DNA of 55,812 nucleotides from positions 1 through 55,812 of the forward strand of contig JAHCJW010000006.1 of NCBI GenBank assembly GCA_026126125.1, written 5' to 3'. Positions within the stretch are counted from its first letter, which is position 1; every line of letters begins with the position of its first letter. Shown in pieces: positions 26,747 to 51,207 of the stretch. Origin of the DNA: Devosia sp. (GTDB taxonomy: Bacteria > Pseudomonadota > Alphaproteobacteria > Rhizobiales > Devosiaceae). The notes beneath the pieces were generated by a model. That model ran no database searches. It was not told the DNA's origin and worked only from the letters and a program-made list of their open reading frames with translations. The translations under genes were made by a program, and so were the position numbers.

Positions 26747-26763
26747 ACAGAACGGCGGTAGGC

Positions 26764-27763: not shown

Positions 27764-28210
27764 ATGGCTACATACAAGAAAACAGACGCCGCGATCGCAA
27801 GGCTCTCACCCGAGGAATACCGGGTGACGCAGCAAAGCGGCACCGAGCGGCCGGGCACCGGTGCTCTTCTCCACAATGATGAGGCCGGCATCTACGTCGA
27901 CATCGTCTCGGGTGAACCTTTGTTCGCATCGTCGGACAAATTCGAGTCCGGTTGTGGCTGGCCCAGCTTCACGAAGCCGATCGAGCCGCTGAACATCAAC
28001 GAGCTGCGTGACACCAGTCACGGCATGGTCCGCACGGAAGTGCGCTCGACACATGGCGATAGCCACCTTGGCCACGTCTTCCCTGACGGGCCGACCGACC
28101 GTGGCGGCTTGCGCTACTGCATCAATTCCGCGTCGCTGCGCTTCATCCCACGCGAGGAGATGGAGGCGCAAGGATACGGTGACTATCTCAACCAGGTAGA
28201 GGATATCTAG
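27764..28210 (+). CDS. msrB: Peptide methionine-(R)-S-oxide reductase, Zn-free type
   Basis: MsrB reduces methionine-R-sulfoxide in proteins. The 148-aa sequence has ESGCGWPSF, the HLGHVFPDG block and the catalytic-Cys block [11 protein letters not shown]. The two CxxC zinc sites found in many MsrB proteins are absent: the first reads YVDIVSGEP. Such forms are known and still active. GAAGGAG precedes the ATG. It is directly followed by msrA with no gap, forming an operon for both diastereomers. Confidence 0.93.
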
Positions 28211-28723
28211 ATGACAACCGAACGTGCTGTACTGGCTGGTGGCTGCTTTTGGGGCATGCAGGATCTCATTCGAAAGAAGTGGGGCGTGATCTCAACGAGA
28301 GTCGGTTATACCGGCGGGGACGTGCCCAATGCGACCTATCGCAATCACGGAACGCATGCCGAGGCGATCGAGATCATCTTCGATCCTCAGAAAATCAGCT
28401 ATCGCCGACTGCTGGAGTTCTTTTTCCAGATCCATGATCCGACCACGCTGGATCAGCAGGGCAATGACTTCGGTAAGAGCTATCGCTCAGCGATCTACTT
28501 CACGAGTGACGAACAGAAGAATGTTGCTCTGGATACGATCGCGGACGTCGAAGCTTCCGGCTTGTGGCCCGGCAAGGTGGTCACGGAGGTCGAGCCGGTA
28601 GGTGACTTCTGGGAAGCCGAGCCGGAACACCAGGATTACCTGGAGCGCATCCCGCACGGATACTCGTGCCATTTCGCGCGCCCCAACTGGGTTCTGCCGC
28701 GCCGAACAGACACGGCGGCCTAA
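28211..28723 (+). CDS. msrA: Peptide methionine-(S)-S-oxide reductase
   Basis: MsrA reduces methionine-S-sulfoxide. The catalytic motif is [12 protein letters not shown] (GCFW), followed by [24 protein letters not shown] and the [21 protein letters not shown] block, which contains the substrate-binding Asp/Glu residues. Length is 170 aa. It starts immediately after the msrB stop, so the two are one transcript. The cytosolic location follows from the absence of a signal peptide. Confidence 0.94.
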
Positions 28724-28774
28724 CAGGTATGTGGCTCGCGGTGCAATGCCGCGAGCCACCAACGGGAGAACATC

Positions 28775-29263
28775 ATGAAAACTGGAATTGTAGGGTCGCC
28801 ATCTCCGCCGTTGGAGAATGTTCAGTGGATCGATGGGAATGGCAATCAGCGTGATCCGCTGTCTCTGGAAGAGCTGGGTACGGGCTTCAAGATCCTGTAT
28901 TTCTTTCAAGACTGGTGCGCCGGCTGTCACACACATGGTTTTCCCACGCTTGTGACACTTGCAGACAATCTCGGAAACAAAGGCGTTGGCTTTGCCGCCG
29001 TGCAGACGGTGTTCGAAGGCTCGGATGTGAACACCTTCGACCGTTTGCGGGAAAACCAGTCACGATATGGACTGAGCATCCCCTTTGGGCACGCCGCTCC
29101 CGGTAAGGGGCAAGGCGAAACCGTGCCGGCGATTATGGAGGCGTTTCAAACGGGTGGGACGCCCTGGTTTGTTGTGATCGCGCCCGACGGCCGCGTTGTT
29201 TACGACGGGTTTCGGCTGGAGGCGGATGCCTTGGTCCACGCGCTTGGAGCATCCGTCGGGTGA
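28775..29263 (+). CDS. TlpA/AhpC-like redoxin with CxxC
   Basis: This is a 162-aa thioredoxin-fold protein with the active site WCAGCH (Cys48, Cys51) after KILYFFQD, and a cis-Pro region TPWFVVIAPDG. There is no signal peptide, so it is cytosolic and could reduce MsrA/MsrB or the small-molecule oxidant directly. It follows msrA by 51 bp on the same strand. A ribosome site (GGGAG) precedes the ATG. Confidence 0.83.
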   Translation: MKTGIVGSPSPPLENVQWIDGNGNQRDPLSLEELGTGFKILYFFQDWCAGCHTHGFPTLVTLADNLGNKGVGFAAVQTVFEGSDVNTFDRLRENQSRYGLSIPFGHAAPGKGQGETVPAIMEAFQTGGTPWFVVIAPDGRVVYDGFRLEADALVHALGASVG

Positions 29264-29529
29264 GTCAATGGAGACGGCAGAATAAATCCATCGCTGAACG
29301 CACGCCATGATGGTCGATAGGGCGGCAAGGGGAAGTGTTTCATGTCAAACACTATATCAACGACGCTATGGATGCGTCCGCCAGGAAATAGCGAACACAT
29401 AAGGCCCTGGCGGTCACCACTATGCGTGCGTCGCGGAGCCGGCAACGAGCCCGCAGGCACTTTTGCTTGGCCCGACTCGCATAAGCGCGACGACAGCTTG
29501 CTTGAGCCTAAATTGGCGAGGGTCTCCTA
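29264..29529. other. Intergenic region before lysR with short inverted repeat
   Basis: There is no gene here. AGTGTTT (29334-29340) and AAACACT (29347-29353) form a 7-bp inverted repeat around 6 bp, a possible regulator site or stem. The region holds the promoter of the following lysR by position. Confidence 0.4.
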
Positions 29530-30465
29530 ATGGTGTTGTCGAAAAGCGTTGAGGCAATCGAGCTTTGCCATCTTAGATATTTTCTGGCGGCGGCCGAACA
29601 AGGTAGCTTTCGCAAGGCGGGAATTGGCCTGGGCCTCTCACAGTCGGCAGTAAGCCGGTGTATCGCCGACCTTGAGGACCAGATTGGAGCGTCACTATTT
29701 CACCGACACTCCTGGGGCGTGTCTCAAACCTATGCAGGTCGACGCTTTCTCAGGCGCGCACGAGAAGCTATGCGGAGCATTGCAGAAGGTGCATACGACG
29801 TAGCGCTTGCGGGTCGCTCCGAGCAGGGTCGAATCCGTATTGGCGTTTATTCCTCAATTGCTTCCGGCTTCCTCGCGGAACTGTTGGGCACCTTCGGCCA
29901 ACGCCACGGGCAGGTAACAATAGAGTTGGTCGACGGAAACCCCGCAGACCACGTTGTAGCAATCCGAAATCTCAGCCTCGATGTAGCGTTTGTCGCCGGT
30001 ACACGAGATTGGCCGGGGTGCGAGCGAACCCCTCTGTGGGAGGAGCGCGTATTTGCAGTTCTGCCCGCCCACCATCCATTGGCCAATCGGAAAGAACTTG
30101 AATGGCGTGATCTACACGACGAAACGTTCGTTGTTAGCGAGTCAGCGCCAGGACAAGAAATCCACGCCTATCTTGTTCGATATCTGGCTGACCTCGGCAG
30201 ACATCCCGAAATAAAGGTACAACACACCAGCCGAGACAATCTCATAGCTCTCGTCGCACTCGGTCAAGGATTGACTGTCGTGAGCGAGGCCATGACATCA
30301 GCACGGTTCGCTGGGGTGGTTTACAAGCCCATCGTCGGCGAGTTGTTGCCATTCTCAGCGGTGTGGTCGACTAACAATGATAACCCCGCCTTTCGTCGGC
30401 TACTCAGTCTGGCAAGGACAATCGCCGTCAGCTCTGACTACTCGCAGGCGGTATCGAGCGCTTAG
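29530..30465 (+). CDS. LysR-family regulator next to the trb cluster
   Basis: The protein is 311 aa. The DNA-binding domain contains LRYFLAAAEQGSFRKAGIGLGLSQSAVSRCIADLEDQIGASLF in the expected order, and the effector domain has IRIGVYSSIASGFLAELLGTF. It converges with the DUF2274 gene, with 38 bp of 3' overlap. LysR genes at this place beside trbI are common in this element family, so it is probably part of the core and may control transfer genes. A GTG at 29533 is an alternative start. Confidence 0.88.
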   Translation: MVLSKSVEAIELCHLRYFLAAAEQGSFRKAGIGLGLSQSAVSRCIADLEDQIGASLFHRHSWGVSQTYAGRRFLRRAREAMRSIAEGAYDVALAGRSEQGRIRIGVYSSIASGFLAELLGTFGQRHGQVTIELVDGNPADHVVAIRNLSLDVAFVAGTRDWPGCERTPLWEERVFAVLPAHHPLANRKELEWRDLHDETFVVSESAPGQEIHAYLVRYLADLGRHPEIKVQHTSRDNLIALVALGQGLTVVSEAMTSARFAGVVYKPIVGELLPFSAVWSTNNDNPAFRRLLSLARTIAVSSDYSQAVSSA

Positions 30466-30667
30466 CCTTTCTAAACCCGCGATCCGTGGCGATGAACCGC
30501 TCCAGCATCGGCACGATCAGCTTCAAGGGATCGGCGACGGGCTTGCCGGTTTCACGGGCCAGCACATCGGCGTAGTCGATCAGGTCGTGGTTAAGCGTCG
30601 CGGGCAATTCCAGTGTGACCTTCACGGGCTTGTCGTCGGGCAGCGGGCCGAGTTTCAACTTGGTCAT
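30428..30667 (-). CDS. DUF2274 protein, conjugation-associated
   Basis: This 79-aa protein (MTKLKLGPLPDDKPVKVTLELP...) is of the DUF2274 type always found after trbI. It resembles a small ribbon-helix-helix-like or structural accessory protein. It starts 2 bp after the trbI stop, closing the trb operon, and overlaps the convergent lysR 3' end. Confidence 0.82.
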   Translation of the reverse strand: MTKLKLGPLPDDKPVKVTLELPATLNHDLIDYADVLARETGKPVADPLKLIVPMLERFIATDRGFRKAKRSIPPASSQS

Positions 30668-30669
30668 GA

Positions 30670-31797
30670 TCAACCTCCTGTCGGCTGGAGCACTAAATCG
30701 CGAGTCACGATGATCCTGACCGGGAAGCCCGGTCGGATCGTTAATGTCGGCGCAACCTGCAACTGGCGCTGCACGATCTGCTGCCCCGCCTGATTGACGG
30801 TGTCCTGCGCCCCTTCGCGGATGGCACGGATCAGCCGGTCTTCGTCGCTGGTTGCCAGTTCCGCGCCGATCCCGAGAAGCGTGGAGAGGCCAGCCGCCTT
30901 CATCAAATCCCACCAGTGATAATCGACGCCATCCTCAAGACCGGCATAGCCGCCGGCGTCGGCGCCCGGCAGGCGCTCCAGCACGATGGACCGGCCGTCG
31001 GGCAGGATCAGGCGATTCCACACAAGGAGCACGCGGCGTTGGCCGAAGGTCACGCCATCATCATACTGGCCGATGATACGGGTTCCCTGCGGGATCAGGA
31101 GCAGCGAGCCGGTCGGGCTGTCATAGACGTTTTCGGTCACTTGCGCCGTGATCTGACCGGGAAGGTCCGACCGGATGCCGGTAATGAGCGCGGCCGGAAT
31201 GACGGCGCCCGCCTGAAGAATATAGGGCGATGCCGGGGGCGTGAGGCGATCCGGGGCGACGGTCTGCCGGTCCACCGGGCCGTTGAGGAAAGCCGCGTGA
31301 CGGTTCTGCCCTGCCGCATCCGGCTGCGCGCCGAGACCAGCCAGGCTGGGCATAGCCGTTCCTGCCGGTGCTTCCGTGCGCGGGCCGGACTGGAAAAAGA
31401 TGCTGCTCAACCGTGCGGCTTCTTCCTCGGCAAGACGGCGCTGTTCGTCTGGATCGACCGCTGGCGCGGTGATGGCGGGTGCGGCAACTGGCTGGCCCCG
31501 GTTCTGCGCCTCAAGGATCGGACGACCGAGATCACCCGGCAGCGCGGGGCCAAGGACCGGGCCGCTATAGTCACTCGGCAGGCCGGCCAGGCCGTCCGCC
31601 GTGGGCCGGTTCTCGGTCGAATAGAGCTCGCCGCCACCCGGCGCAACATCGCGAGTCTGGAGTGCGTAGATCAGCGCCCCGCCTATGCCGAGCAGGGCGA
31701 CGGCTCCGACGCCAGCCAGCATCTTGCGGGATAGGCGGGTGACGCGGGGCGATTCGGCGCGCAGGCGCATGGGGGCGGCGGTATCGGTATCGCTCAT
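30670..31797 (-). CDS. trbI: Conjugal transfer protein TrbI (VirB10-like)
   Basis: TrbI is the VirB10-type bridge that spans from the inner membrane to the outer-membrane core of the type IV secretion channel. It has an N-terminal cytosolic tail, a single transmembrane helix (about residues 30-48, LAGVGAVALLGIGGALIYAL), a Pro-rich periplasmic linker and a C-terminal beta-barrel domain with LQAGAVIPAALITGI, LLLIPQGTRIIGQYD and WNRLILPDGRSI. Length 375 aa is normal. Its start overlaps the trbG stop by 4 bp. Confidence 0.93.
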   Translation of the reverse strand: MSDTDTAAPMRLRAESPRVTRLSRKMLAGVGAVALLGIGGALIYALQTRDVAPGGGELYSTENRPTADGLAGLPSDYSGPVLGPALPGDLGRPILEAQNRGQPVAAPAITAPAVDPDEQRRLAEEEAARLSSIFFQSGPRTEAPAGTAMPSLAGLGAQPDAAGQNRHAAFLNGPVDRQTVAPDRLTPPASPYILQAGAVIPAALITGIRSDLPGQITAQVTENVYDSPTGSLLLIPQGTRIIGQYDDGVTFGQRRVLLVWNRLILPDGRSIVLERLPGADAGGYAGLEDGVDYHWWDLMKAAGLSTLLGIGAELATSDEDRLIRAIREGAQDTVNQAGQQIVQRQLQVAPTLTIRPGFPVRIIVTRDLVLQPTGG

Positions 31798-39082: not shown

Positions 39083-40077
39083 TCAGTTTCTCCAGTGTTG
39101 TAAGCGGTGTCGGGTTCTGAAGTGGCGGGTGAAATCCGGTAGTCGCCGTCCGGCCCAAGCCCGTCGACGCGGGCAAGCTCGGCAAGGCGTCGCGCTGAAC
39201 CGCGACCAGCGAGAACGGCGACGAGATCGATGGTCTCCGCGATCATGGCGCGGGGGACGGTAACGACAGCTTCTTGGATGAGTTGTTCGAGACGGCGCAG
39301 CGCCCCGATCCCGGAGCCGGCATGAATAGTCCCGATGCCGCCAGGGTGTCCGGTGCCCCAGGCTTTGAGGAGATCGAGCGCCTCGGCCCCACGCACCTCG
39401 CCGATGGGGATTCGATCGGGGCGCAGGCGCAGGGACGACCGCACCAGTTCGGCCAAGGTGGCGACGCCATCCTTGGTCCGCATGGCGACGAGATTAGGCG
39501 CGGCGCATTGCAGCTCGCGGGTATCCTCGATGATGACGACGCGATCCTGCGTCTTCGCCACCTCAGCGAGTAGTGCGTTCGTGAGCGTCGTTTTGCCTGT
39601 GCTCGTGCCGCCGGCAACCAGTATATTGGCGCAAGATACAACGGCCGCGCGCAGCGTCTCGGCCTGATCGGCATCCATGATGCCCGCCGCAACATAGTCG
39701 TCCAGGCTGAACACGGCGACGGCGGGCTTGCGAATGGCAAAGGCGGGCGCAGCGACGACGGGCGGCAGCAATCCCTCAAAGCGCTCCCCGGTTTCCGGCA
39801 GTTCGGCCGAGACGCGCGGGCTGCGCGTATGCACTTCGACGCCCACATGGTGGGCCACCAGCCGCACGATGCGCTCGCCGTCTGTGGCGGAGAGTATCTC
39901 GCCGGTATCTGACAGACCCTCCGACAGCCGGTCCACCCAGATCCGGCCATCGGGGTTCAGCATGACCTCGACAACAGATGGGTCTTGCAGGAGGTTCGAG
40001 ATGGCAGGCCCGAGCGCCGTCCGGAGCATGCGCGCGCCGCGGTCCACACTTGCCTGTTCGTGGTTGATGCCTGCCAT
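39079..40077 (-). CDS. trbB: Conjugal transfer ATPase TrbB (VirB11-like)
   Basis: TrbB is a 332-aa hexameric secretion ATPase. The Walker A is GGTSTGKT (156-163), the Asp-box [12 protein letters not shown] follows, then [33 protein letters not shown] in the expected order and [13 protein letters not shown] (His box). ATG 40077 has GGGGAC upstream. It is the first gene of the trb run, but the neighbour upstream is the defence island instead of copG. Confidence 0.95.
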
Positions 40078-40506
40078 CTCGTCCCCGTTCCACCGGGGAG
40101 GCGAGAGAAGATCCCCGGATGGGGATCACTAAAAGAGCCGCAACACGGACCGATTCAACAAGTTTCGGCCGTCGTAGTAGTGTGGGATAAAAATACAGGA
40201 GATTGGCGGTTGTGCCTCTCAGCACCAAGATGGAGCTGCATAGTTGAACCGTTTGGCAAGAGCGGAGCGACTCGACGAGTCATACCGCTTCGCGGGACAG
40301 AGCTGCCATTCGCTACGGCAGCGACCAGTGTTCGCTTCTGGGTGGATTCCTGCTCGACCGCTTCTGAGCGGCGGAGATGGGAAAGCAGCCATCCAAGTGG
40401 CCGCCGCAGTTCGAATGCAAAGCGCTCGATCTCAGCCATCGCGGGTTCCGGAACACTGGAGAGACGTAGTGAAAAAGAACAGACCTCGTCGTCGACGAGC
40501 CGCTTC
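40078..40506. other. Island/trbB junction: intergenic region with hairpin
   Basis: The region between the helicase stop and trbB has no convincing gene. A minus-strand open frame (40439-40155, 94 aa) begins MAEIERFAFELRRPLGWLL but has a weak ribosome site and no known family. A 7-bp stem, GATCCCC (40110-40116) and GGGGATC (40121-40127), lies 33 bp before trbB. It probably contains the trbB promoter and the island's right edge. Confidence 0.5.
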
Positions 40507-42024
40507 CTACAGGTTGAACAGCGGACTGGGCTTCGCTTTCGAAACGACCAGCATCAGCGAGCGGGTCGCCCGACTGAGCGCGACATATAGCCGGGCGCGC
40601 GACGCCTTGGTGTTCGAAAAATTGTCAGCGTCGCACGGTAGGACCATCACATTTTCGAATTCGAGGCCTTTGGCCTTGTGGATCGTGCTGATCGCTTTCA
40701 TCGGCAGCTGTGGTCGGGCGTGGGTGCGTCGCCGAGCGATTTCGGCAAAGCCGTCATCGGCATCCTCGAACCGGCCGAGCAGGATCGCCTCGGCAAACTC
40801 GCGGCCATGATGGATGCGGACGTCAGCAAAGGCCGCTTCATTCGCTGCCAGGCTCCGCAGGTGGTTGAGCGCTCGTGCCACGCCGCGATGATCCGGGCAC
40901 TCGACGATATGACGAGCCATCGCCTGGAGATGCTGCGGCTTGCCGTTGCAAGGTTTGGCGCATCCCTCCTGCGCCTCGAGCACGAAGCGGTTGCCGAAGG
41001 CCGTCGGCGAAAACCCCGAGGCGACCGAGCCCATGAATGTGAGCATGCCGCGCGCCAGTGACTCGGCATTGCCCTGATGGGCCGCACAATGCGCGGCGAG
41101 CGTGGACAGCCCTTCGCGAACATGGCCTTCCCAGATCGGCAGGCGCCGGTTGAAGAAGGCACGCAAGGCGGTGACGCGATCATTTTGTCCGGTAAGGACG
41201 AGCAAAGACGGCGCGTTGGCGCGTGCGTAGATTGCAGGACTCTCTTGCGCGTCCACTCGGAACCCGGTGCGCTGCGGTGAGCTGTTCTCGGCAACATGGA
41301 CGGTGAGCCCGGCCGGAAGGTTGCCGGTGAGGTCGATCTTGCCGCCATCACGCAGCGTCGCGCGCGAGGCGAGGATCCAGGCGCCGAGCTCGGGCTGGAC
41401 GTTTGCCCAGCGATGAGGCTGGTCGAGTTCCTCAAACCGATCGGCTGCGGCCTTGAGATTCTCCCAGCGCTGTTCTGCGGCGGCGGTTTGCGCCTGGGTG
41501 CCGGTGAAGATCATTTGCATCGGATCGGCGAACACACGAAGCTGCGCCCCGCCGCGATGCAGCGCCATGACAAGTGTATGCTGGTCGGCGCTTGCGTCCT
41601 GATGCTCGTCGCAGACGACGATCGGATAACGCCGGGCCACACAGTCCGCGATCGCAGGATGCCGGGTCAGCAGGCGTGCCACCCTCTCGCCCAGCAGGTC
41701 GTACCCTTTTGGGGTGCGCCGTGCCCAAGCGCCGACATCCTCAGGCAGGCCAAGGGGGTGGCGGTAGGCGCCGGCGATCTCGATCACGAGCCCGTCGATC
41801 GTGCGAATCTCGACGTGGCGGCTGAGACCGTGCGTCCGGCCGGCAAAGACGTCGCAGGCGGCATTGGTGTGAGTCAAAATGAGCAGTCGTCCGTCGCCGA
41901 GGGCGGGCGCGATGTCGCAGGCGTAGCGGGCGCCCTGATAAGTCTTGCCGCAGCCGCCCGGCGCCTCGACGACCACGAGGCGCGCGGCGGAGCGAAGCGC
42001 TTGGGCGACCGTCGCGTCTGACAT
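40507..42024 (-). CDS. gajB: UvrD-like superfamily 1 helicase (Gabija GajB-like)
   Basis: The protein is 505 aa from ATG 42024. Walker A is VVVEAPGGCGKTYQG (about 18-31), Walker B is IVVCDEHQDASADQ, followed by an HRWANVQP motif and the C-terminal motifs STIHKAKGLEFENVMVLP and ARLYVALSRATRSLMLV. This is a compact UvrD/PcrA-like helicase of GajB size. Its ATG shares one base with the stop of the OLD-family gene (TGATG), so the two are coupled. In Gabija, GajB senses or processes DNA ends and activates the GajA nuclease. The frame extends upstream to 42192, but that part is antisense to nothing and overlaps gajA. Confidence 0.85.
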   Translation of the reverse strand: MSDATVAQALRSAARLVVVEAPGGCGKTYQGARYACDIAPALGDGRLLILTHTNAACDVFAGRTHGLSRHVEIRTIDGLVIEIAGAYRHPLGLPEDVGAWARRTPKGYDLLGERVARLLTRHPAIADCVARRYPIVVCDEHQDASADQHTLVMALHRGGAQLRVFADPMQMIFTGTQAQTAAAEQRWENLKAAADRFEELDQPHRWANVQPELGAWILASRATLRDGGKIDLTGNLPAGLTVHVAENSSPQRTGFRVDAQESPAIYARANAPSLLVLTGQNDRVTALRAFFNRRLPIWEGHVREGLSTLAAHCAAHQGNAESLARGMLTFMGSVASGFSPTAFGNRFVLEAQEGCAKPCNGKPQHLQAMARHIVECPDHRGVARALNHLRSLAANEAAFADVRIHHGREFAEAILLGRFEDADDGFAEIARRRTHARPQLPMKAISTIHKAKGLEFENVMVLPCDADNFSNTKASRARLYVALSRATRSLMLVVSKAKPSPLFNL

Positions 42025-43790
42025 CAGACGACCGCTTGCGCGGCCCCGAGCCCGACGGCCCCTCGGACAGCATTGACGAACGGGAGAAGCTGGGGCGCGA
42101 CATGCGGCCAGAGCCCAAACGCGAAGAGCTTGTCGGCGAGTTCGGCGCCGCCCGCGACGCTCTTGAACCAGCGCTGGCCGTGCTTCTTCCACGCCTTTTT
42201 CTGCGCCTCAGGCGCGTTCGGATCGGCGGGAGCGGTACCGCACGCTGCCGCGATCATCAGCGAGCGGATATCGTCTGTCGCAGCGAGGATCGCCGCAAGC
42301 GACTTATCCTCCAGATTCAGTCGATCGGCCAAGGTTCGCAGCCGCTCGCCAACATCACCGTCGGGCTCGGCAATGAAGGCCTCTAGCTGGTGATCCTGAA
42401 GGTGCGGGATGAGGTTGGTTTCAAGGCATCCGTCCGGCCAGCGCATGAGGAGATCGCCGAGCTGGTCCTTGGTCTGTTGCCACAGGCCCTGCTGTGTGCC
42501 CTCATTGTCCGCGAAGCCGGCAACTTTGAGCCCGCTCGTCGCGAGGCCACGTAGTACAGTCAACGCTTCCGAATTGCTGCCGCCGTCGCTGACCCAGATT
42601 CCGTGACGACGGAGGTCCTCCCCGAGCGAACGGTTGAGCAGATTGGTGACGAATCCGACTTCGGTCGCGCCTTCGGCGATCACTGCCACTCGCGCGAGGA
42701 AGGTCTCGGGATCGCGCTTCTGCTGCGCCGCGACCGATGCCGGAAGCCTCCCGATCTTGCCGCCGGCGTCCACATACCAAAGCGTGGCCGTGGCGGCGGC
42801 GTGGACGGCAGGCGCGCTGTGCGTCGTCACGAACACCTGCGAGGGGCTCGCGAGCAGCTCCTCGATCAGAATGCGCTGGCGGTAGGATTCAAGGCCGCGT
42901 TCGATCTCATCGACGACCATGATCGGATGCTCGGCATGATGGGCTGCGGCGACCTCGAGCGCCGCAAGCCGGCGTGTCCCCGCACCCCAGCTCGCCATGG
43001 GCAGCATGGTGCCGTCCTTGGTTGCGGTGAGGCCGATCAGCGCATTGAGCGAAAAACCCGGCCCGCCGACCAGACCAAGGCCGAGCTGGCTGGGCAAAGT
43101 GCGCTTCTGGAACCGCTCATCGAGATCACCGAGCGCGATCTTCGCACTCTCCTTGAGTTCGCCATGCACGTCTGTTTCCCCGATCTTATCCGCCAGACGT
43201 GATCGCAATGTCTTGTCGCTGAGCAGGCGGTCGAGCGCCGATCCCTGGATCAGGCGGAGGTCGCGATCGTTGCGATCGTCGCCCCCGAGCCGCACGACGC
43301 CGATATTCCGGCGGACCGAAACCGGGAAATGATCGACGGTGTCGTCGGGCTGGCAGATTTCGTGTTGCAGTTCAAAATCGGGCGTCCCACAGACGCGCAC
43401 GCAGAACACAGGATCGAGCGGCTGGCCGTCATTGGCCTCAAGATCGGGAAGCTTCGGGCCATCCACGCTCCATTCCCAGGGCCAGCTCGACTTGCGTTGC
43501 TCGACGATGCCACAGTTCAGGGGCAGCGCCATAGCGGCGGCAATCTCGAAGCCGTCCTCGTGCCGGCGTTGCCAATAATCGGCATCTGACAGCATTGCCG
43601 CATTGGTTGGGCTGAGAAGAAGCGCGATGGCGTCCAGAATGGTGCTCTTGCCCACGTCGCCGCCGCCCAGGAGCACGTTCATGCCTTTGCCGGGGAACCA
43701 CGACAGCGCCTCGATCCCCCTGAACCGCTTGATCGACAGGTGGCGAATGTAGGGCGCGAAGTCGGCCGGTTGTTGAGCATTTTCTGCCAT
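42024..43790 (-). CDS. gajA: OLD-family ATP-dependent nuclease with TOPRIM domain (Gabija GajA-like)
   Basis: The product is 588 aa. The N-terminal ABC-like ATPase has Walker A LGGGDVGKST (41-50), a signature-like SWGAGTRRLAALE (267-279), Walker B MVVDEIERGLE (291-301) and a His switch VFVTTHS (319-325). The C-terminal TOPRIM nuclease has Glu373 in IAEGATEVGF and the acidic FADNEG (426-431). The arrangement with a coupled UvrD-type helicase is a class 2 OLD / Gabija system, which cuts phage DNA when nucleotide pools fall. It lies 92 bp after the RT gene on the same strand. Confidence 0.87.
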   Translation of the reverse strand: MAENAQQPADFAPYIRHLSIKRFRGIEALSWFPGKGMNVLLGGGDVGKSTILDAIALLLSPTNAAMLSDADYWQRRHEDGFEIAAAMALPLNCGIVEQRKSSWPWEWSVDGPKLPDLEANDGQPLDPVFCVRVCGTPDFELQHEICQPDDTVDHFPVSVRRNIGVVRLGGDDRNDRDLRLIQGSALDRLLSDKTLRSRLADKIGETDVHGELKESAKIALGDLDERFQKRTLPSQLGLGLVGGPGFSLNALIGLTATKDGTMLPMASWGAGTRRLAALEVAAAHHAEHPIMVVDEIERGLESYRQRILIEELLASPSQVFVTTHSAPAVHAAATATLWYVDAGGKIGRLPASVAAQQKRDPETFLARVAVIAEGATEVGFVTNLLNRSLGEDLRRHGIWVSDGGSNSEALTVLRGLATSGLKVAGFADNEGTQQGLWQQTKDQLGDLLMRWPDGCLETNLIPHLQDHQLEAFIAEPDGDVGERLRTLADRLNLEDKSLAAILAATDDIRSLMIAAACGTAPADPNAPEAQKKAWKKHGQRWFKSVAGGAELADKLFAFGLWPHVAPQLLPFVNAVRGAVGLGAAQAVV

Positions 43791-43882
43791 TGGCTCAAAT
43801 TACGGTTTGCGACTGGAACGGTCCAGCATTGAGATTGGTTTTCGGCACTATATTCGAAGATATTGCGCTTGGCGGCGGGAGC

Positions 43883-45049
43883 TCAGTCATCCCAGCCGCT
43901 TTCGATCTGGCGGGGCTGGATGGGCGGCCAGTCGACTGAGGCGAATTGCTCAAGCGCTTGCTGGCCAAAGGCTGGTTCGACCTGCTGGGCCCAGGCGATC
44001 AGGCCACGAACATGATGATAGAGACTAGAGACGCCGGTCTTGCGCGCCAGAGCATGCTTGGCAGGCCCATAAGCGGGTGAGGATAGATAATGGAGATGGA
44101 GACGGATCATGTCTTTATAGGCGCGCTGTAGGCGAGGCATTGGGCCGTCGACCAGCATGCCCAAAACGATCCGGCGCGTGCCGGGGCCACGGATCACGGT
44201 CTTGCGCTGATTGTGCCGGAACCCCGAGTCGTTGAGAATCGCGCACACGTCGCGCTGAAGCCTGCGCATCTCCCCCAGCGAGCGATCGGCGTCGGTGGAA
44301 AAGGCCAGATCGTCGGCGTAGCGCGAGTAGCGCAGCCCGCGTTCCTCGGCTAGCCGCGCCAGGAGTGTATCGATACGCAGCATTGCGAGATTGGCGAGCA
44401 TCGGGCTCGTTGGCGCACCTTGCGGAAGAATGCCTTCATAACCAAGCGCGTAGAAGTCGATCGGGCCTTTGTGTGGCGCAGGGTTCTTTCCGGGCCCTCG
44501 ATCGAGCCCGATAGTGCAAAGTCGTGCAAATTCGAAGGACAGTAACTTGGGAAAGCCCAGCCAGGCAAAGATCGCCGAGACCGTCCCTTCACTCACCGAG
44601 TGAAAGAAATCCTCGATATCAACCTTCAACAGCCATTTGGTGTTGGGGTGCTGTTCAGCGGCCTGGACTGGCGAAGATTCTGGATGGAAGGCGAAGCTTG
44701 CCGGATGGACGGGCGCATAGCGAAGGACATGATCGACTAGCCAGCGCTGCGCGATCGCTAGGCTCTTCGGCGGAATCGAGATCATCCGCTTGGCGGATCG
44801 GCCTGGGATACGCTTCTTCAGAAGGACGAACCGGTATTTCGTGTGCCCGCGACGCGCGACCGTCCGACGCAGGAATAGATAGGGTAGCTCGGTCAGTACC
44901 GAGAAATGGCGCAGAGTCAGCACCGGGGTAATGCGAGGGTCTGTCGCTCGTATGCGGGCGAGCGCCGCTAATGCGTTTTCAAGCGTGACTGCATCGATGC
45001 CGTGGCGGCGAGCGCCAGATGCGTAGCGTTGAGGGCTCGGTGCGGACAT
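43883..45049 (-). CDS. Retron-type reverse transcriptase
   Basis: The RT is 388 aa. Motifs in order: a degenerate NAxxH-like site, AAEQH (130-134); catalytic Asp in KVDIEDFFHS (142-151); LPQGAPTSPMLANLAM (208-223); the catalytic YADD (244-247) in YSRYADDLAFS; and IVLG (294-297) where retron RTs carry VTG. The size and lack of maturase or endonuclease domain point to a retron rather than a group II intron. It would copy the adjacent structured RNA into msDNA. Both diagnostic retron motifs are altered, so its template choice may differ from known ones. Confidence 0.85.
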   Translation of the reverse strand: MSAPSPQRYASGARRHGIDAVTLENALAALARIRATDPRITPVLTLRHFSVLTELPYLFLRRTVARRGHTKYRFVLLKKRIPGRSAKRMISIPPKSLAIAQRWLVDHVLRYAPVHPASFAFHPESSPVQAAEQHPNTKWLLKVDIEDFFHSVSEGTVSAIFAWLGFPKLLSFEFARLCTIGLDRGPGKNPAPHKGPIDFYALGYEGILPQGAPTSPMLANLAMLRIDTLLARLAEERGLRYSRYADDLAFSTDADRSLGEMRRLQRDVCAILNDSGFRHNQRKTVIRGPGTRRIVLGMLVDGPMPRLQRAYKDMIRLHLHYLSSPAYGPAKHALARKTGVSSLYHHVRGLIAWAQQVEPAFGQQALEQFASVDWPPIQPRQIESGWDD

Positions 45050-45055
45050 CTACTT

Positions 45056-45228
45056 CGACCCACTCAGGTGGGTGGGACAGCAAGTCTCGTCCAAGACCCC
45101 GCCAGCCGTGACTTGCTGTCTCGCGCAGCGCGAAGGTCCTGCTCCGATGCACGGACCCGGGAAATCCCTGGCCCCAGGTTCCCAAGGAACCTGTCGCCGC
45201 TTGCGCGGCGCATTTCTAAACTCCCTCA
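45056..45228 (-). ncRNA. Candidate retron msr-msd RNA
   Basis: The gap between the PRTase and RT genes is packed with hairpins. In transcript order (minus strand): CGCCGC-GCAA-GCGGCG (45210-45195, a GNRA tetraloop); CAGGTTCC with GGAACCTG (45193-45175); GGTCC with GGACC (45157-45135); TCGCGC-T-GCGCGA (45133-45121); an 11-bp stem GACAGCAAGTC with GACTTGCTGTC (45120-45076) around a 23-nt loop; and ACCCAC-CTGA-GTGGGT (45073-45058). A G-rich 5' end (GGTGAGGGA) can pair with the C-rich 3' end (TCCCACCCACC), a possible a1/a2. Which part is msr and which msd is not assigned. Confidence 0.72.
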
Positions 45229-46482
45229 CCGGGCCCTCAACTGGCTAGGATAATAGTAGGGCAAGTCCTCGGTGGGAAGCACAACCGTGCGGGCGCGCCG
45301 TAACTGAAGCCGCCGAAGCTCGCGCTGGCCAAGAACGGTCAGGGTGTTACGCAGGCTCGTCCAGCGGGCGATGCGGGTGAACACAAGAATCTGCTCGACA
45401 TTGGCGAGCGACAACCGCGTGCGAGCAGAAGCGCTGGCCGCCGTGCGAGATCCATCTTTGAGCGCGGTCAGAACCAGCATCGTTTCGACCCAGCGGCGAC
45501 GGGTTGGATCGGCGAGGAATCGCTCTGCCGTCCGGATTTGCAGAACTGCCCGAGCGCGGTCGGCGAGGGCATCGGCATTGGCCGCCGGAAAATGCATGTC
45601 GGCGCCGAGCGCGCTACGGTTGCGGAAAAGCGGCACCCATCCTTTTCGATCGCTATGTAGGACAGGCGGCGCATTGTTAGGCATGCCATGCGAGAAGGCG
45701 ATAAGCGCGCCGGCCGAGCCGAAGCCGAACGGATAGCGGCTACGGTGAGGATGGGCGCGGCACAGTGCCAAGACCGCATCGCGGTCCACGCCGACAAATG
45801 AGGTGAAGATGGTGGGGCAGGCATGGACCACACGGGCGTTTGGCCCCGAGCGGTGCGATCGGACGTGTTTCAGCCCATCTTCAGTCCCGGAATAGGCGAC
45901 CACGGCAAATCGGACGAGGCCGTAGGAGTGCCAACTACGGATTGTGGCGACACGCCAGAACGCCTCGAGCATTTCCCACACGCGCTTGCCCGAGCCGATG
46001 AAGTCGGTGACGATGACAATGTGACTGACGCGGCCGGTGCGCAGCGCGTCGGGTCCGGGATGGCTCAGCACGCGGTCCCGGTGCAGGCGCTCATATCCGG
46101 TAATGAAATTGGCGATCGAGCCTTCGCTGCCGACCTCTTGATCGCTTGGGTCGATGACGATGGGCGGCATGCCGGTGCCTGTGGCGCGCCCCTCATCGGT
46201 ACCCGGAAAGAAGGGAAGGACTTCGTGGCGGACGAAGCCATATTCGTCATCCTTGGCATCGCGGGTCTCCACGGCGCGCTCAGCGAACAGCGCTATCGGC
46301 CGGTCCTGATCGCCCTCGTCGCGGTTTGTGGTGGTCTCGTCGAGCAGTAAGCGCAGCCCCCGGTAAAGAGCATCGTGGCCGACCAACATCACGGCGTCGG
46401 CCAACTGTTCGGCCACAAGACGCTCCGCTCCGGAAAACTGCGCCAGCCAATCGCGCGGAAAATCGGTTTGCGACAGGCTCAT
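45226..46482 (-). CDS. PRTase-like retron effector with C-terminal winged-helix-like part
   Basis: The protein is 418 aa. A phosphoribosyltransferase-type Rossmann core is shown by HIVIVTDFIGSGKRVWEM (154-171), which is the PRPP-loop pattern (hydrophobic strand, acidic residue, Gly-Ser-Gly-Lys). A second conserved-looking block is FSHGMPNNAPPVLH (263-276) followed by GWVPLFRNR, known from PRTase-type effectors of retrons and related defence genes. The last 90 residues look helical and winged-helix-like, with RLSLANVEQILVFTRIARW. It ends exactly where the structured RNA begins. The start is ATG 46482. The effector probably consumes or transfers a nucleotide-like group when triggered (inference). 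Confidence 0.78.
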   Translation of the reverse strand: MSLSQTDFPRDWLAQFSGAERLVAEQLADAVMLVGHDALYRGLRLLLDETTTNRDEGDQDRPIALFAERAVETRDAKDDEYGFVRHEVLPFFPGTDEGRATGTGMPPIVIDPSDQEVGSEGSIANFITGYERLHRDRVLSHPGPDALRTGRVSHIVIVTDFIGSGKRVWEMLEAFWRVATIRSWHSYGLVRFAVVAYSGTEDGLKHVRSHRSGPNARVVHACPTIFTSFVGVDRDAVLALCRAHPHRSRYPFGFGSAGALIAFSHGMPNNAPPVLHSDRKGWVPLFRNRSALGADMHFPAANADALADRARAVLQIRTAERFLADPTRRRWVETMLVLTALKDGSRTAASASARTRLSLANVEQILVFTRIARWTSLRNTLTVLGQRELRRLQLRRARTVVLPTEDLPYYYPSQLRAR

Positions 46483-46757
46483 GGCCAGACCGAACCTCCC
46501 CTTTTTGTCCTCTAGGCAGCCTGTCTTTATACTGGGTTCTAAGCAAGCAGATTTAAGTCCAAGACGACGGATTCTCGGGCCGCTTTTGGTCTGAGTCCTT
46601 GGTTTTCCGAAATTTCAGCTTTCCGATACTGCTGTTTAAAACCAGACTGTCCGCATATGGGCGACGTGGCAAGCCTCCCGAATGTCGAGAATGAGGTCGC
46701 GAGCGGACACGAGATCGCGACCGACCGGCATCTTAGCGGCTCAAACCGGCCGACCAA
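46483..46757. other. Left edge of defence island, promoter-bearing gap
   Basis: There is no convincing gene in these 275 bp. A minus-strand 72-aa open frame (46757-46539) has no family. The region by position must hold the promoter for the PRTase-RNA-RT unit and the junction with the conjugation module. Confidence 0.45.
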
Positions 46758-47201
46758 CTAGCTGATCTCTGCCCCGTGATCTGGTCCGCTCATATCCTCC
46801 GACACCTCCTGCCGAAGCTTCGGCCCTTGGGCGAGCCGCCTGCCGAGCGCCGCAATGAAGCCCTCATACCGCTCTCCTACCTTGGCTTTGGCCGCGTTTG
46901 CGGCGGGTTCCGGTAGAGCTGGCGTCGTGGCTAGCCAGAAGCGGATGAAGACCGCCAGGGTTTCGACAGCAATTCCAACATCCCGCTCCACACGCGTCAT
47001 ACGGCGGTCCATCTGATCGAGGCGCCGCGCGATGATCGCCTCCCGGCGCTCGGCGTCGTCGGGCGACAGAAACGACGCGATCGCGGCCTCGGCGATCATG
47101 GACTGCGAGCGATCCCGACGATCGGCAAATTCCACCAGAGCCTTCTCGATGGCCGGGTCCAGATAAACCGTGACCTTTCTCTTTTTCCGGGGATTGGCCA
47201 T
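46758..47201 (-). CDS. CopG-family ribbon-helix-helix protein
   Basis: The protein is 147 aa. The N terminus (KKRKVTVYLDPAIEKALVEFADRRDRSQSMIAEAAI in order) is a ribbon-helix-helix DNA-binding domain; a helical region and a hydrophobic stretch follow. In Trb-type ICEs a copG gene always lies between traG and trbB; here it is separated from trbB by the defence island. It starts 4 bp after traG and probably regulates the transfer operon or assists traG. Confidence 0.85.
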   Translation of the reverse strand: MANPRKKRKVTVYLDPAIEKALVEFADRRDRSQSMIAEAAIASFLSPDDAERREAIIARRLDQMDRRMTRVERDVGIAVETLAVFIRFWLATTPALPEPAANAAKAKVGERYEGFIAALGRRLAQGPKLRQEVSEDMSGPDHGAEIS

Positions 47202-47205
47202 GTCG

Positions 47206-49194
47206 CTAGAGATCCATGCCGTCGCCGGGATTCATCGAGACCTGACGCGCAACGCCCTGAACATTACGGATCATGCGCCGGTTCTGGGCGGCTTCTTCGT
47301 CAACATCATCGGACAGCCCAGCCTCCCATTCGCTTTCGATGGGCTTTTTGTTCTCCGCCGGCTTCACGCGGCCGAGTTCAGGCTGCAGCCTCCGTTCTGA
47401 TTGGGTCGGGTCTTCATCCTCGGCTGGTTCAGGCGAAGGATCTTCGCTGGAATATTCGGGCCGCGCCGGAATCGGCAACGCGGTCCAGTCGTCCGTCTGC
47501 GGCGTCTCGGGCGGCGTCAGCTCCGGTGGCGAGAGCAGGCGTTCGCGAAACCGCTCGTCCTCGAAATACCGCGCCTTCTTCGCCCGAACCGGCGGGATGC
47601 CGGCGACCATGACGATCTCGTCGCTCGGGGGAAGCTGCATGATCTCGCCCGGTGTGAGCAACTGGCGTGCGGTCTCCGAGCGGGACACCATGAGATGGCC
47701 GAGCCAAGGAGACAAGCGGTGCCCCGCATAGTTCTTCATCGCCTTCATCTCGGTGGCGGTGCCGAGTGCGTCGGAAACCCGCTTGGCGGTACGCTCGTCG
47801 TTGGTGGCAAAGCTCACGCGGACATGGCAGTTGTCGAGGATCGAGTTGTTCGGCCCATAGGCTTTCTCGATCTGGTTCAGCGACTGCGCGATCAGGAAGC
47901 TCTTGAGGCCATAGCCCGCCATGAAGGCCAACGCAGTCTCGAAGAAGTCCAGTCTCCCAAGCGCGGGAAACTCGTCCAGCATCAGCAGCAAGCGGTGCCG
48001 GCCGGCGTTTTCCTGCAAATCCTCGGTGAGGCGACGACCGACCTGATTGAGCAGCAATCGCATCAGGGGCTTGGTGCGGTTGATGTCGGACGGCGGCACG
48101 ACGAGGTAGAGGGTCGCCGGCCGCTCGCCCCCGACGATATCGCTGATCCGCCAGTCGCAGCGGCGCGTCACCTCCGCGACCACGGGATCGCGATAGAGGC
48201 CCAAGAAAGACATGGCCGTCGACAACACGCCGGACATTTCGTTGTCGGATTTGTTGCGCAATTCGCGCGCGGCGCTGGCGACGACGGGATGCGGCCCCGC
48301 TTCGCCCAAATGCGGGGTCCGCATCATGGCAAGCAGGGTGGATTCCACCGGGCGCTTAGGGTCGGACAGGAATTTGGCGACGCCCGCCAGCGTCTTGTCC
48401 GGCTCGGCATAAAGGACATGCAGGATCGCGCCGACGAGGAGCGAATGGCTGGTCTTTTCCCAGTGATTCCTTTTGTCCAGGGAACCCTCCGGGTCCACCA
48501 GAATATCGGCGATGTTCTGGACGTCGCGCACCTCCCACTGACCGCGCCGCACCTCGAGCAGCGGATTGTATGCCGAGGAGTTCGGATTGGTGGGATCGAA
48601 GAGCAGCACCCGGCCATGCTGCGCGCGGAAACCGGAGGTGAGCTGCCAGTTCTCGCCCTTAATGTCGTGGACGATGGCCGAGCCCGGCCAAGTCAGGAGC
48701 GACGGGATGACCAGACCGACGCCCTTGCCGGATCGGGTCGGCGCAAAGCAGAGCACATGCTCCGGGCCGTCATGGCGAAGATACTCGCGGTCATAACGGC
48801 CGAGGACGACGCCATCGGGATCGAGCAGTCCCGCCTTCCTGATCTCCGAGGTCTCTGCCCATCGCGCCGAGCCATAGGTGGCGACGTTCTTGGCCTCGCG
48901 CGCCCGCCAGACCGACATGCCGATGGCGACCGCGATGGCGATGAAGCCGCCGGAGGCCGCAATGATGCCCCCCTTCGCAAAGATCGGCGGCGCATAGGCT
49001 TCATAGAAATACCACCACCAGAAGATCGCCGGCGGGTAGTAGATCGGCGTCCCGAACAGCTCGAACCAGGGCGGGCCGAGTTGCGGCTGATAGCCGAGGC
49101 TCCAGGCGACATACTGCGTCGCGCCCCAGGTGGTGGCGAGGATGATGAGGAAGACGATACTGATCTGTCCCCAGAGGATCTTGGTCGCCGACAT
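47206..49194 (-). CDS. traG: Type IV coupling protein TraG (VirD4-like)
   Basis: TraG is 662 aa. Two N-terminal transmembrane helices (about 10-35 and 75-95) precede the ATPase, with Walker A CFAPTRSGKGVGLV (149-162) and Walker B LLLMLDEFPALGRLDFFETALAF. The VGRRLTEDL and FLIAQSLNQI blocks are typical. It links the relaxosome to the secretion channel. The C terminus is acidic and low complexity. It lies between rlxS and copG, 24 bp after the relaxase. Confidence 0.95.
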   Translation of the reverse strand: MSATKILWGQISIVFLIILATTWGATQYVAWSLGYQPQLGPPWFELFGTPIYYPPAIFWWWYFYEAYAPPIFAKGGIIAASGGFIAIAVAIGMSVWRAREAKNVATYGSARWAETSEIRKAGLLDPDGVVLGRYDREYLRHDGPEHVLCFAPTRSGKGVGLVIPSLLTWPGSAIVHDIKGENWQLTSGFRAQHGRVLLFDPTNPNSSAYNPLLEVRRGQWEVRDVQNIADILVDPEGSLDKRNHWEKTSHSLLVGAILHVLYAEPDKTLAGVAKFLSDPKRPVESTLLAMMRTPHLGEAGPHPVVASAARELRNKSDNEMSGVLSTAMSFLGLYRDPVVAEVTRRCDWRISDIVGGERPATLYLVVPPSDINRTKPLMRLLLNQVGRRLTEDLQENAGRHRLLLMLDEFPALGRLDFFETALAFMAGYGLKSFLIAQSLNQIEKAYGPNNSILDNCHVRVSFATNDERTAKRVSDALGTATEMKAMKNYAGHRLSPWLGHLMVSRSETARQLLTPGEIMQLPPSDEIVMVAGIPPVRAKKARYFEDERFRERLLSPPELTPPETPQTDDWTALPIPARPEYSSEDPSPEPAEDEDPTQSERRLQPELGRVKPAENKKPIESEWEAGLSDDVDEEAAQNRRMIRNVQGVARQVSMNPGDGMDL

Positions 49195-49218: not shown

Positions 49219-50964
49219 TCAGAGGCCGAGGCCGCGCTTGCGGCCGAATTCCCAATCGACGCCGCCATCGTCACGAGCGACGCCTGAGACATGGCGGCCG
49301 ATCTGCTTTTCGAGGGAGGGTGACCAGGGCACGAGCTGGAAGCCGAGGCCGTCGTCGATCATGGCGAAGCGGCCGGAGGCCAGCGCAAGCCGTTGACGGT
49401 AGGCGCCGGCGACATATTCGCCGCTGGCTGCGCGATTGAACGGCAGCCCGGTCTCAGAGGCGAGTTTCTCGCCGAGCGCATCGATCTCGCGCTGGCGCAG
49501 GGTGCTGAGGAGGCGACGCGCAAAGACGACGCGGCCGCCCTGGCCTTGCCGCTCGGCCAGACCCTCGCCGATGAGATGCTCGGCACGTTCATCAAGTGCC
49601 TGACGGACTTCCGCGCCGAAGCCGCTGTCCGACAGGGCAATGGGTTCGCGTGCAATCGCCTGCCGGTCGAGCCAGGTCGCGCCCGTGGCGCCGACCTGAG
49701 CGCCGAGATCGAGATCGGAGCGGACGGCGAGCGCAACACGGCGCTGCCCTTGCGCGTCCTCCCAGGAGCGCAATTCCACGATCGAACCGGGCGGGCTGTC
49801 GCCCGTGGCATCGAGGTGCGGCAGCCTGATATGATGGGTGCGGCCGTCGGTACCGTCGACCACGGCATAGGCCGTGCCCCTCAACTCGTCATCGAGGCCG
49901 CGTTCGACCAGTCGGCCGACGATGGGAACGTCGAGGCTTTCGCCCGCAAGAACATAGCTGGCCGAGCCGCGCTCGATGCCGCGCTCTGTGAGCGCGCGGT
50001 GCATACGCTTGATGATGTCGCCGCGTTCGCCCATCTCGCGCAGCACAGTCTCGGCTTCGGGCCTGATGAACCATTGCGCGTGTCCGATTTGGCCGGCCAA
50101 TCCGCGGATTTCGAGGGTGCGCAGCCGCCCCACCTTCAGCGCATGGAACTCGTCCGGCTGGCGGTCGGCAGGCGGAGCGAGATCTATAATCCCGGACTTG
50201 TGGGCGTCACGGACAAGCTGTCGGTCAAGCTGGGTCCAGCGTTCCGCCTCGACCTGGCGCTCCAGATTGCGGTGGATCTGCAGATCGGTGCGTGGGCCGA
50301 GTTCCTGCGTGACGAGATCCTGTGCGCGGGCGCGCATCCCCTCCTTGATGTAGTCGCGGGAGATCACGAGGTCCTGGCCGTCGTCCGCGCGGCCACGCAG
50401 GATGATGTGGATATGGGGATTGTCGGTATTCCAGTGATCGACCGCGACCCAATCGAGCCGGGTGCCGAGATCCTTTTCCATCTGCCCCATCAGCTCACGG
50501 GCGTGCGCCTTGAGGTCGGTCATGTCGACGGCGTCCTCCGGCGAGACGATGAACCGAAAATGATGCCTGTCGTCCCGGCACCTCTCCGCGAAGGCGCCGG
50601 CATCCATGTCGTCGATTTCCGGGCCGAACATCCGTGCCTTTTCCCCGTCGCGGGTCACGCCATCGCGGCGCAGGTAATTGAGGTGGGCGCCGAGCGGAGC
50701 GGAACGTGCGGTATGGCGCACCACGCGGGTCTTGATGACGACGACACGCGAGCGCCCGCTCAGCAGACGATTGGCCTGGATGCTGGCGCGCTGGCCGCGC
50801 CCGAAGCGCGAGCGGTTGCCGGACGTGATCCTCCCGGAGCGTGAGACGCGGCCGCCGGCCTTCTGGGCGGCGGCGAGCGCCTGGGCGACAAAAGGCCGGG
50901 CCTGCTGCACACGGGTCGAGCGGATGCGTCCCGGACGGATGCGGAACTCGCTGTCATCTGACAT
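49219..50964 (-). CDS. rlxS: Relaxase RlxS (VirD2-like, DUF3363 type)
   Basis: The relaxase is 581 aa from ATG 50964 (an upstream GTG at 50979 adds 5 residues). It has the N-terminal VirD2/TraI-like domain with a catalytic Tyr region (HLNYLRRDGVTRDGE) and the three-His metal motif HWNTDNPHIHIILRGR, then the C-terminal DUF3363. It nicks oriT and leads the strand into the recipient. The intergenic region directly upstream has the palindromes expected of an oriT. Confidence 0.93.
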   Translation of the reverse strand: MSDDSEFRIRPGRIRSTRVQQARPFVAQALAAAQKAGGRVSRSGRITSGNRSRFGRGQRASIQANRLLSGRSRVVVIKTRVVRHTARSAPLGAHLNYLRRDGVTRDGEKARMFGPEIDDMDAGAFAERCRDDRHHFRFIVSPEDAVDMTDLKAHARELMGQMEKDLGTRLDWVAVDHWNTDNPHIHIILRGRADDGQDLVISRDYIKEGMRARAQDLVTQELGPRTDLQIHRNLERQVEAERWTQLDRQLVRDAHKSGIIDLAPPADRQPDEFHALKVGRLRTLEIRGLAGQIGHAQWFIRPEAETVLREMGERGDIIKRMHRALTERGIERGSASYVLAGESLDVPIVGRLVERGLDDELRGTAYAVVDGTDGRTHHIRLPHLDATGDSPPGSIVELRSWEDAQGQRRVALAVRSDLDLGAQVGATGATWLDRQAIAREPIALSDSGFGAEVRQALDERAEHLIGEGLAERQGQGGRVVFARRLLSTLRQREIDALGEKLASETGLPFNRAASGEYVAGAYRQRLALASGRFAMIDDGLGFQLVPWSPSLEKQIGRHVSGVARDDGGVDWEFGRKRGLGL

Positions 50965-51207
50965 GGCGCAGCCCCGCACGGTGCAAAAGGATGCGGAATA
51001 TCAGGAGGATGGGCGCGCAGCGCACGGTGCGCGCCAGCGCCGCACGGCGCGGAACGCGACGGAAAACCCCGCAAAAACAACCGCCCAACCGAAGCGCACC
51101 GTGCGCCTTTTTATCTCGCCATCCTTCGGTCGGGGTGCCTGCCGCCACCCCTCGCGCCCTCGATGACACGCCAGCACACGACGGGATGCGAATTGCGTTG
51201 CCGCTGC
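50965..51207. other. Candidate oriT / relaxosome region with CGCACGG palindromes
   Basis: CGCACGGTGC occurs at 50975-50984 and 51021-51030, CGCACGGCGC at 51041-51050, and the inverse GCACCGTGCG at 51096-51105. The second and last are centres of perfect 13-bp palindromes, GCGCACGGTGCGC (51020-51032) and GCGCACCGTGCGC (51094-51106), in opposite orientation. The location next to rlxS makes this the best oriT candidate. The last palindrome is followed by CTTTTT on the plus strand and could also act as a terminator. Confidence 0.55.

Follow-up and report, generated by a model that had tools for sequence, protein, structure and literature searches.

The locus at positions 43883 to 46482 of the window (the whole stretch of 55,812 nucleotides [nt] from Devosia sp. 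contig JAHCJW010000006.1) raises the question of whether a gene for a phosphoribosyltransferase (PRTase)-like protein, a structured RNA, and a reverse transcriptase (RT) gene together form a known or a new kind of retron, and where the RNA that such an RT would copy begins and ends. The locus is very likely a complete type III-A retron, judged from its sequence, with a PRTase-winged-helix effector, an msr-msd RNA, and a retron RT encoded on one strand, and it is real and probably functional. Retrons of this kind are already known as anti-phage units of bacteria; the unusual trait here, of which no description was found, is a dual-coding closing helix of the RNA. Its two arms appear to be the last codons of the effector gene and the first codons of the RT gene, with the same letters serving as protein code and as RNA structure.

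The effector open reading frame (ORF), a gap of 176 nt between the effector stop and the RT start, and the RT ORF all lie on the minus strand and are read in the order effector, RNA, RT (46482 to 43883). These positions, together with PADLOC type III-A models for both proteins, bear out the tripartite, one-directional retron layout proposed in an earlier note on this DNA. The best PADLOC model for the 388-amino-acid RT was RT_III-A (PDLC02944; 515 bits, 8.4e-155, residues 1 to 384), far above all other models (next model, 226 bits), and that for the 418-amino-acid effector was PRTase_III-A (PDLC02933; 2.5e-114, residues 1 to 417). The note had left undecided whether this PRTase-type retron was known or new, and these two models place it in the known type III-A. 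The effector was followed by an RT on the same strand in 33 of 33 loci (the near-identical locus L002 excluded), which were collected by searches with either gene and include one, L028, with broken frames and an odd gap.

The PRTase fold, the PRPP (phosphoribosyl pyrophosphate) loop, and the winged-helix-like tail that had been read from the effector sequence were all recovered. Pfam families PRTase-CE (PF24390; residues 146 to 287) and wHTH-PRTase_assc (PF24409; residues 335 to 417, a winged helix fused to the effector) were matched above their cutoffs, and the PRPP-loop-like HIVIVTDFIGSGK was present as described. Both families were also matched in 26 of 26 aligned family members. In a set of 28 effectors, conservation was seen at GSE(G), D160 with GSG, PN, and a C-terminal Y-x-P-x-x-L-R; the GSE, D160/GSG, and PN motifs, which were invariant or almost invariant, fit a domain predicted to use PRPP or a nucleotide. 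No NCBIfam model reached its cutoff for the effector.

The retron assignment of the RT was supported by Pfam RVT_1 (PF00078; 1e-19) and by the closest solved structure, the retron Ec86 RT (8.3e-30). Placement with other RT families, named in the earlier note as what would overturn the retron reading, was not observed: the group II intron model TIGR04416 scored 52.3 bits (300 needed) and the Drt2 model scored 38.5 bits (390 needed), with no named model applied for the RTs of diversity-generating retroelements. In a tree of RTs from 30 loci, the window grouped with L003, L004, and L005 (support, 100/99), and this group joined L021, L022, L029, L030, and L058 (100/100); the deeper backbone was weak, with 8 of 27 inner branches open.

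Taken together with short flanks, the intergenic gap (45035 to 45230) was predicted to fold at −94.4 kcal/mol (z = −3.36), and 1 of 200 dinucleotide shuffles folded as low. An alignment of nine loci of one structural class (the window and the eight loci just named; 228 columns) gave a consensus with a 15-pair closing helix and, in order toward the RT, three msr-like hairpins, a small stem, a long hairpin, and one final stem. This anatomy of closing repeats, msr hairpins, and a long msd hairpin matches the description in PMC6868368. Across the nine loci, 93.3% of pair cells were paired, versus 39 to 44% in slid controls; 33 of 68 pairs showed changes on both sides, versus 16.6 in shuffled alignments, and the covariation score was 0.419, versus 0.195. 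Not one of 500 shuffles reached the paired share, the both-side changes, or the covariation score, and 1 of 500 reached the count of pair types. The consensus was derived from the same alignment, which favors it over its slid versions, but hardly to the extent observed. Helix 6, the long hairpin, had 14 of its 18 pairs changed on both sides, and the three msr helices had 3 to 6 such pairs each. The conserved sequence AAG followed by TAGATG stands directly after the last stem, in which 3 of 6 pairs were invariant. The RNA is thus conserved with RT homologues and covaries, and the retron reading has gained support from it as well as from the III-A models and the similarity to Ec86. The hairpin-dense RNA described in the note was found to be structured, as claimed, but not to be limited to the intergenic gap, since the closing helix enters both ORFs. 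A search of positions 40000 to 48000 against Rfam gave no family at cutoff and two listed matches far below it. A conserved GTCTT near the msd tip was considered and is not claimed; it lay near the tip in part of the 30 loci, and similarly common 5-mers occurred in shuffles.

The closing helix extends about 16 nt into the 3′ end of the effector gene and about 22 nt into the 5′ end of the RT gene. Complementarity between its arms (a1 and a2) was scanned without gaps, the last 90 nt of the effector gene against the first 45 nt of the RT gene, in 30 nonredundant loci (L051, whose scores equal those of L029, L054, a near copy of L023, and L028, with its broken frames, were dropped). Each of the 30 loci had a best a1/a2 helix of 8 to 21 nt, which in most cases lay at RT nt 8 to 22 and no more than 34 nt from the effector stop; in L037 and L053, which have longer effector frames, a1 lay further inside. 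The summed helix score was 359.5, versus a mean of 203.4 and a maximum of 222.9 in 200 draws in which both ends were recoded synonymously, and recodings as good as the native sequence made up less than 5% in 29 of 30 loci (exception, L050, with 29 of 200). In a control for position, the RT-start window beat all other 45-nt RT windows in 24 of 30 loci, in 28 of 30 the effector-end window beat each of ten alternatives within the effector, and scores of at least 11 were found in 0.8% of 1,038 control windows versus 23 of 30 native ones. The ungapped score replaced an earlier duplexfold scoring of raw windows after the duplexfold outcome was known. That outcome was bulged and less clear, with the native RT start best or tied in 11 of 30 loci and recodings often as good in L059 (229 of 500), L030 (160), L024 (144), L037 (137), L053 (98), L025 (96), and L026 (90).

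Substitution patterns and codon choice point in the same direction. Among the four closest loci, third positions changed at 0.29 per codon and pair in RT codons 2 to 9, versus 0.63 in codons 10 to 43, and at 0.11 in the last six effector codons, versus 0.50 to 0.57 upstream. Changes in RT codons 10 to 43 fell mainly at third positions (37/29/128 by position), and therefore the frame is coding there and the RT start lies at or near a2. In the helix core, the effector Leu-Arg is antisense to the RT Pro/Ser-Gln, codon by codon. Among the 27 loci with both Leu and Gln, the pairing was TTG-CAA in 15, CTG-CAG in 10, TTG-CAG (a wobble) in 2, and CTG-CAA in none, so that the two codons were matched in 25 of 27 (Fisher test, 7.8e-6, a value inflated by relatedness of the loci). 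The adjacent codon was fully Watson-Crick paired in 21 of 27, with a wobble in 5 and a mismatch in 1 (L038). When switches were followed on the RT tree in an independent-pairs test, the partner moved the same way in 3.8 of 4 cases (Leu first) and 4.0 of 6 cases (Gln first), and never the opposite way.

Whether the position of the helix is peculiar to this family was examined in viral contigs. A search with the single RT found no relatives there, and a 26-row RT alignment found 456, of which the best 80 were kept and 4 of these 80 were omitted for short upstream sequence. Among the best 80 of the 456, 4 had a fused effector and 8 had weak PRTase matches. With a good helix defined by a score of at least 10, near-identical loci kept, and RT starts chosen by rule, the 64 RT loci without a PRTase match had 42 good helices, with the 3′ arm upstream of the guessed RT start in 33, inside it in 7, and straddling it in 2; the 8 weak-PRTase loci had 7 good helices (5 upstream and 2 straddling). 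The 30 loci of the fused-effector family had 26 good helices, of which 19 were inside the RT, 6 straddling, and 1 upstream, and the 4 further fused-effector loci from viral contigs had 1 inside and 3 straddling. A helix inside the RT start is typical of the fused-effector family and uncommon but not absent elsewhere. In the weak-PRTase loci (L064 to L067, L086, L087, L091, and L096), the PRTase ORFs ended approximately 200 to 640 nt before the RT frame; these loci may represent further III-A units, in some of which another gene intervenes.

According to PMC6868368, the priming G of a retron, mostly found in a TAGC context, is either part of the closing stem or the base directly after it, and the predicted priming G of this locus lies in TAGC or a variant of it. 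TAG was invariant in 9 of 9 aligned rows, followed by A in the window and by C in L030 and L058. A priming helix was defined by two features: a G follows it immediately, and its partner strand is formed by the bases that come next after the conserved AAG (GAG/TAG) upstream of the RT start. Such a helix reached at least 4 bp in 21 of 30 loci (shuffled mean, 9.7; maximum, 17) and 5 bp in 17 of 30 (shuffled mean, 4.4; maximum, 10). In the window, the predicted priming G is 45216 (TTTAG), and its partner, TAGAT, takes in the A and T of the RT start codon; this short inner helix would bring that codon next to the G. In L023, L031, L038, and L048, the predicted priming G is the final base of the effector TAG stop codon.

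Several results weigh against this reading of the locus. The RT lacks the N of NAXXH, a hallmark of retrons in general (AAEQH in its place), and the T of the VTG that opens region Y (VLG, in RIVLG). Both departures were present as the earlier note had described them, and they are no sign of novelty because most of the relatives examined share them and because 2 of 16 validated RTs depart from each. At region X, 19 of 22 distinct rows covering the site had xAxxH (A, T, or S first) and 3 had NAxxH; at region Y, 20 of 23 distinct rows had VLG, ILG, or LLG and 3 had VTG. According to PMC6868368, NAXXH and VTG each occur in 14 of 16 validated retron RTs, and neither is universal. AAEQH and IVLG are best read as traits of the RT clade, compatible with a retron and no pointer to novelty. 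No NCBIfam model reached its cutoff for the RT, the best being that of the retron St85 RT (180 of 235 bits). A single-sequence search of the PDB with the effector found no solved relative, and a 26-row effector profile matched chiefly winged-helix regulators there (best, 0.0046). In the RNA, helices 5 and 7 showed zero compensatory both-side changes and are conserved, not proven as helices, and no priming helix of at least 4 bp was found within the stretch searched in 9 of 30 loci, the L024/L025 branch included. When RT starts were swapped between loci, the native partner was strictly best in only 11 of 30, because close relatives also pair with each other. About 5 switches on the RT tree, which required at least 5 for Leu and 7 for Gln, underlie the codon covariation, and the independent-pairs sign test gave a P value of 0.125, the switches being too few for significance. 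In PMC12548924, the PRTase-bearing type III-A retron Bpu1 gave no protection against the phage panel tested.

In the proposed working of the system, the RT would bind the msr hairpins and prime from the 2′-OH of G45216, and the hairpin upstream of the RT start codon would be copied into approximately 70 nt of single-stranded DNA, the reverse-transcribed DNA (RT-DNA). If the system behaves like retrons already studied, the RT and RT-DNA would together hold the PRTase effector inactive until phage activity damaging or binding the RT-DNA released it. The freed effector would then stop the cell by acting with its PRPP-loop domain on PRPP, on a nucleotide, or on a nucleic acid, a step in which the winged helix might provide guidance. 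Both the effector stop and the RT start codon lie under the closing and priming helices, so a transcript folded for priming should not simultaneously initiate RT translation; judging by the helix positions, RT synthesis and RT-DNA production would compete in cis. In this branch of the type III-A retrons, the template RNA would then have no ends of its own, and each transcript would be spent either on the RT, the antitoxin protein, or on the RT-DNA needed for a complete antitoxin, a cis control of the toxin:antitoxin ratio kept by matched synonymous codons in two genes. This last proposal is plausible but tentative, and we hold it at somewhat less than even odds.

The same helix, spanning the effector stop and the RT start codon, could also mark an RNA that mainly couples or attenuates translation between the two genes, with an RT that works without RT-DNA in the manner of an unknown-group or defense-associated RT (UG/DRT) enzyme. 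We consider this improbable, since the RT falls in the retron clade and not with DRT enzymes, the closing stem, TAG priming site, short hairpins, and single long hairpin of the RNA agree with the anatomy published for msr-msd, and a type III-A retron, Bpu1, produced RT-DNA in Escherichia coli (PMC12548924). That the unit is a type III-A retron decayed or silent as cargo of a conjugative element is scarcely more probable. Two relatives are indeed broken (in L022 the effector lies in two overlapping frames, and in L028 the RT lies in two frames and the effector ends early), and the distribution is patchy, with the effector in 2 of 75 genomes of the genus; in the window, however, both ORFs are intact and the catalytic YADD and conserved effector residues are present, and close relatives differ mostly at third positions. 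Least probable of all is that conserved peptides, and not an RNA helix, account for the a1/a2 complementarity. The effector LR and the RT Q are conserved, and LR is antisense to (P/S)Q codon for codon, so related loci cross-pair. Synonymous recoding, however, keeps the peptides and loses the helix, codon choice is matched between both genes, and L035 to L037 retain a helix despite different peptides and a different register.

The reading of the locus as a type III-A retron with a dual-coding closing helix can be set beside known systems. The locus resembles Retron-Bpu1 and Retron-Ppe1 (PMC12548924) in its PRTase effector, winged helix, noncoding RNA, and III-A RT and differs from them, compared by description, in that the PRTase and winged helix form one protein, the RT has VLG for VTG, and a1 and a2 lie inside the flanking ORFs. 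Ppe1 could not be transformed and was presumed toxic (PMC12548924). Retron-Sda1 shares a III-A1-like RT and RNA class with the window and carries HipA and DUF3037 in place of the PRTase effector, which is not so in the window (PMC12548924). Eco1 (Ec86) has a different effector class and is similar in its msr hairpins, long msd hairpin, closing stem of 8 to 30 nt, TAG-context priming G (PMC6868368), and RT family. Some classical retrons have an accessory gene between msr-msd and the RT, so that a2 cannot be in the RT gene (PMC6868368). An a1/a2 overlap with coding sequence was not found in the literature searched, and a dual-coding closing helix was not found in the available portions of PMC12548924, PMC6868368, and PMC13405049; a mention in the main retron classification (Mestre et al. 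2020) is possible.

With this locus, the type III-A retrons, of which few tested examples were found and for whose effector sequence search gave no solved relative, gain a member from the Alphaproteobacteria that lies in a conjugative region. Because synonymous changes in a1 and a2 alter neither protein, any loss and rescue of RT-DNA that they caused would trace to RNA structure. The position of the arms suggests that cloning or genome-editing use of the gap alone would lose the RNA ends and that RNA models restricted to intergenic sequence would miss them.

Table 1. Positions of the retron components and of the adjacent gene pair in the window
Feature	Position	Strand	Remarks
Effector ORF	45226-46482	-	418 amino acids, ATG start
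RT ORF	43883-45049	-	388 amino acids, ATG start; YADD core, AAEQH and IVLG variants
a1 arm of closing helix	45227-45241	-	Within last effector codons (..Q L R A R stop); 14 of 15 nt complementary to a2
Candidate priming site	45216-45221	-	GTTTA (45217-45221), then putative branch guanosine G45216 in conserved TAG
msr, three hairpins	45195-45210, 45175-45193, 45153-45174	-	Helices 2 to 4; 93.7 to 100% of cells paired
Small conserved stem between msr and msd	45124-45146	-	Helix 5; 93% paired
msd long hairpin	45074-45122	-	Helix 6; 18 pairs; likely the reverse-transcribed part
Stem ACCCAC..GTGGGT before template 3′ end	45058-45073	-	Helix 7
TAGAT, priming-helix partner	45048-45052	-	Includes A and T of RT start codon
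a2 arm of closing helix	45028-45042	-	Within RT codons 3 to 8 (A P S P Q R)
Gabija-like pair	42024-43790 and 40507-42024	-	Directly downstream of RT; PADLOC 3e-65 and 3.8e-55

The type III-A unit has a wide but patchy distribution. The effector was found in 10 of 398 genomes of the phylum, 4 of 297 of the order, 3 of 385 of the class, and the 2 genomes of the genus mentioned above, counts that include the window's own genome, and in 6 of 199, 4 of 149, and 2 of 91 genomes of three families, counts that include the hit on which each is centered. The genome draws overlap, and the E-value limits (1e-40, 1e-20, and 1e-30) differ between the effector searches. A search of the class with the RT model found 3 of 385 genomes, own genome included. 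Relatives of the RT were found at 4 loci in genome contigs, including L002 (Paracoccus sp. MKU1; 99.9% identical to the window over 13,164 nt), and in 13 plasmid records, 8 of which were examined; phage records yielded no RT relative at 1e-20.

The retron is located in a conjugative region. On the higher-coordinate side are genes for TraG/VirD4 (47206 to 49194) and a relaxase with DUF3363 (49219 to 50979), and on the lower-coordinate side are more conjugation genes, including TrbI (30670 to 31797) and, by reading of ORFs, TrbB- and TrbE-like genes. L029 (6727 to 19001) has its retron in a conjugative region resembling that of the window; there the retron lies between the relaxase and TraG, followed by CopG-like, TrbB, TrbC, and TrbE genes, a slot other than that in the window. 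The Gabija-like pair next to the RT comprises a GajA-like ATPase/TOPRIM-like protein of 588 amino acids, with Pfam OLD-like TOPRIM just below cutoff, and a GajB-like UvrD helicase, whose likely ATG overlaps the last base of the GajA-like stop by reading of ORFs. The retron and this pair are common to the window and L003 (81 to 85% DNA identity) and also occur in L002; L004 and L005 have the retron without the pair. The pair was considered as a general part of the retron system and rejected as such: among 29 other loci scanned, the GajA-like protein was found only in L003, some loci ending so close to the RT that absence there carries no weight. A weak helicase match lay beside L030 and L049. 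In L022 (a plasmid of Rhizobium sp. L51/94), an AAA ATPase and UvrD-helicase pair unlike that of the window is located upstream of the type III-A retron, the effector of which is split over two overlapping frames and carries no annotation. Elsewhere in the window, positions 16000 to 31000 have a lower G+C content (approximately 0.55 to 0.60, versus approximately 0.65) between higher-G+C stretches and contain genes for a luciferase-like monooxygenase, sulfur transport, oxidoreductases, and two LysR regulators; this block is likely acquired metabolic cargo.

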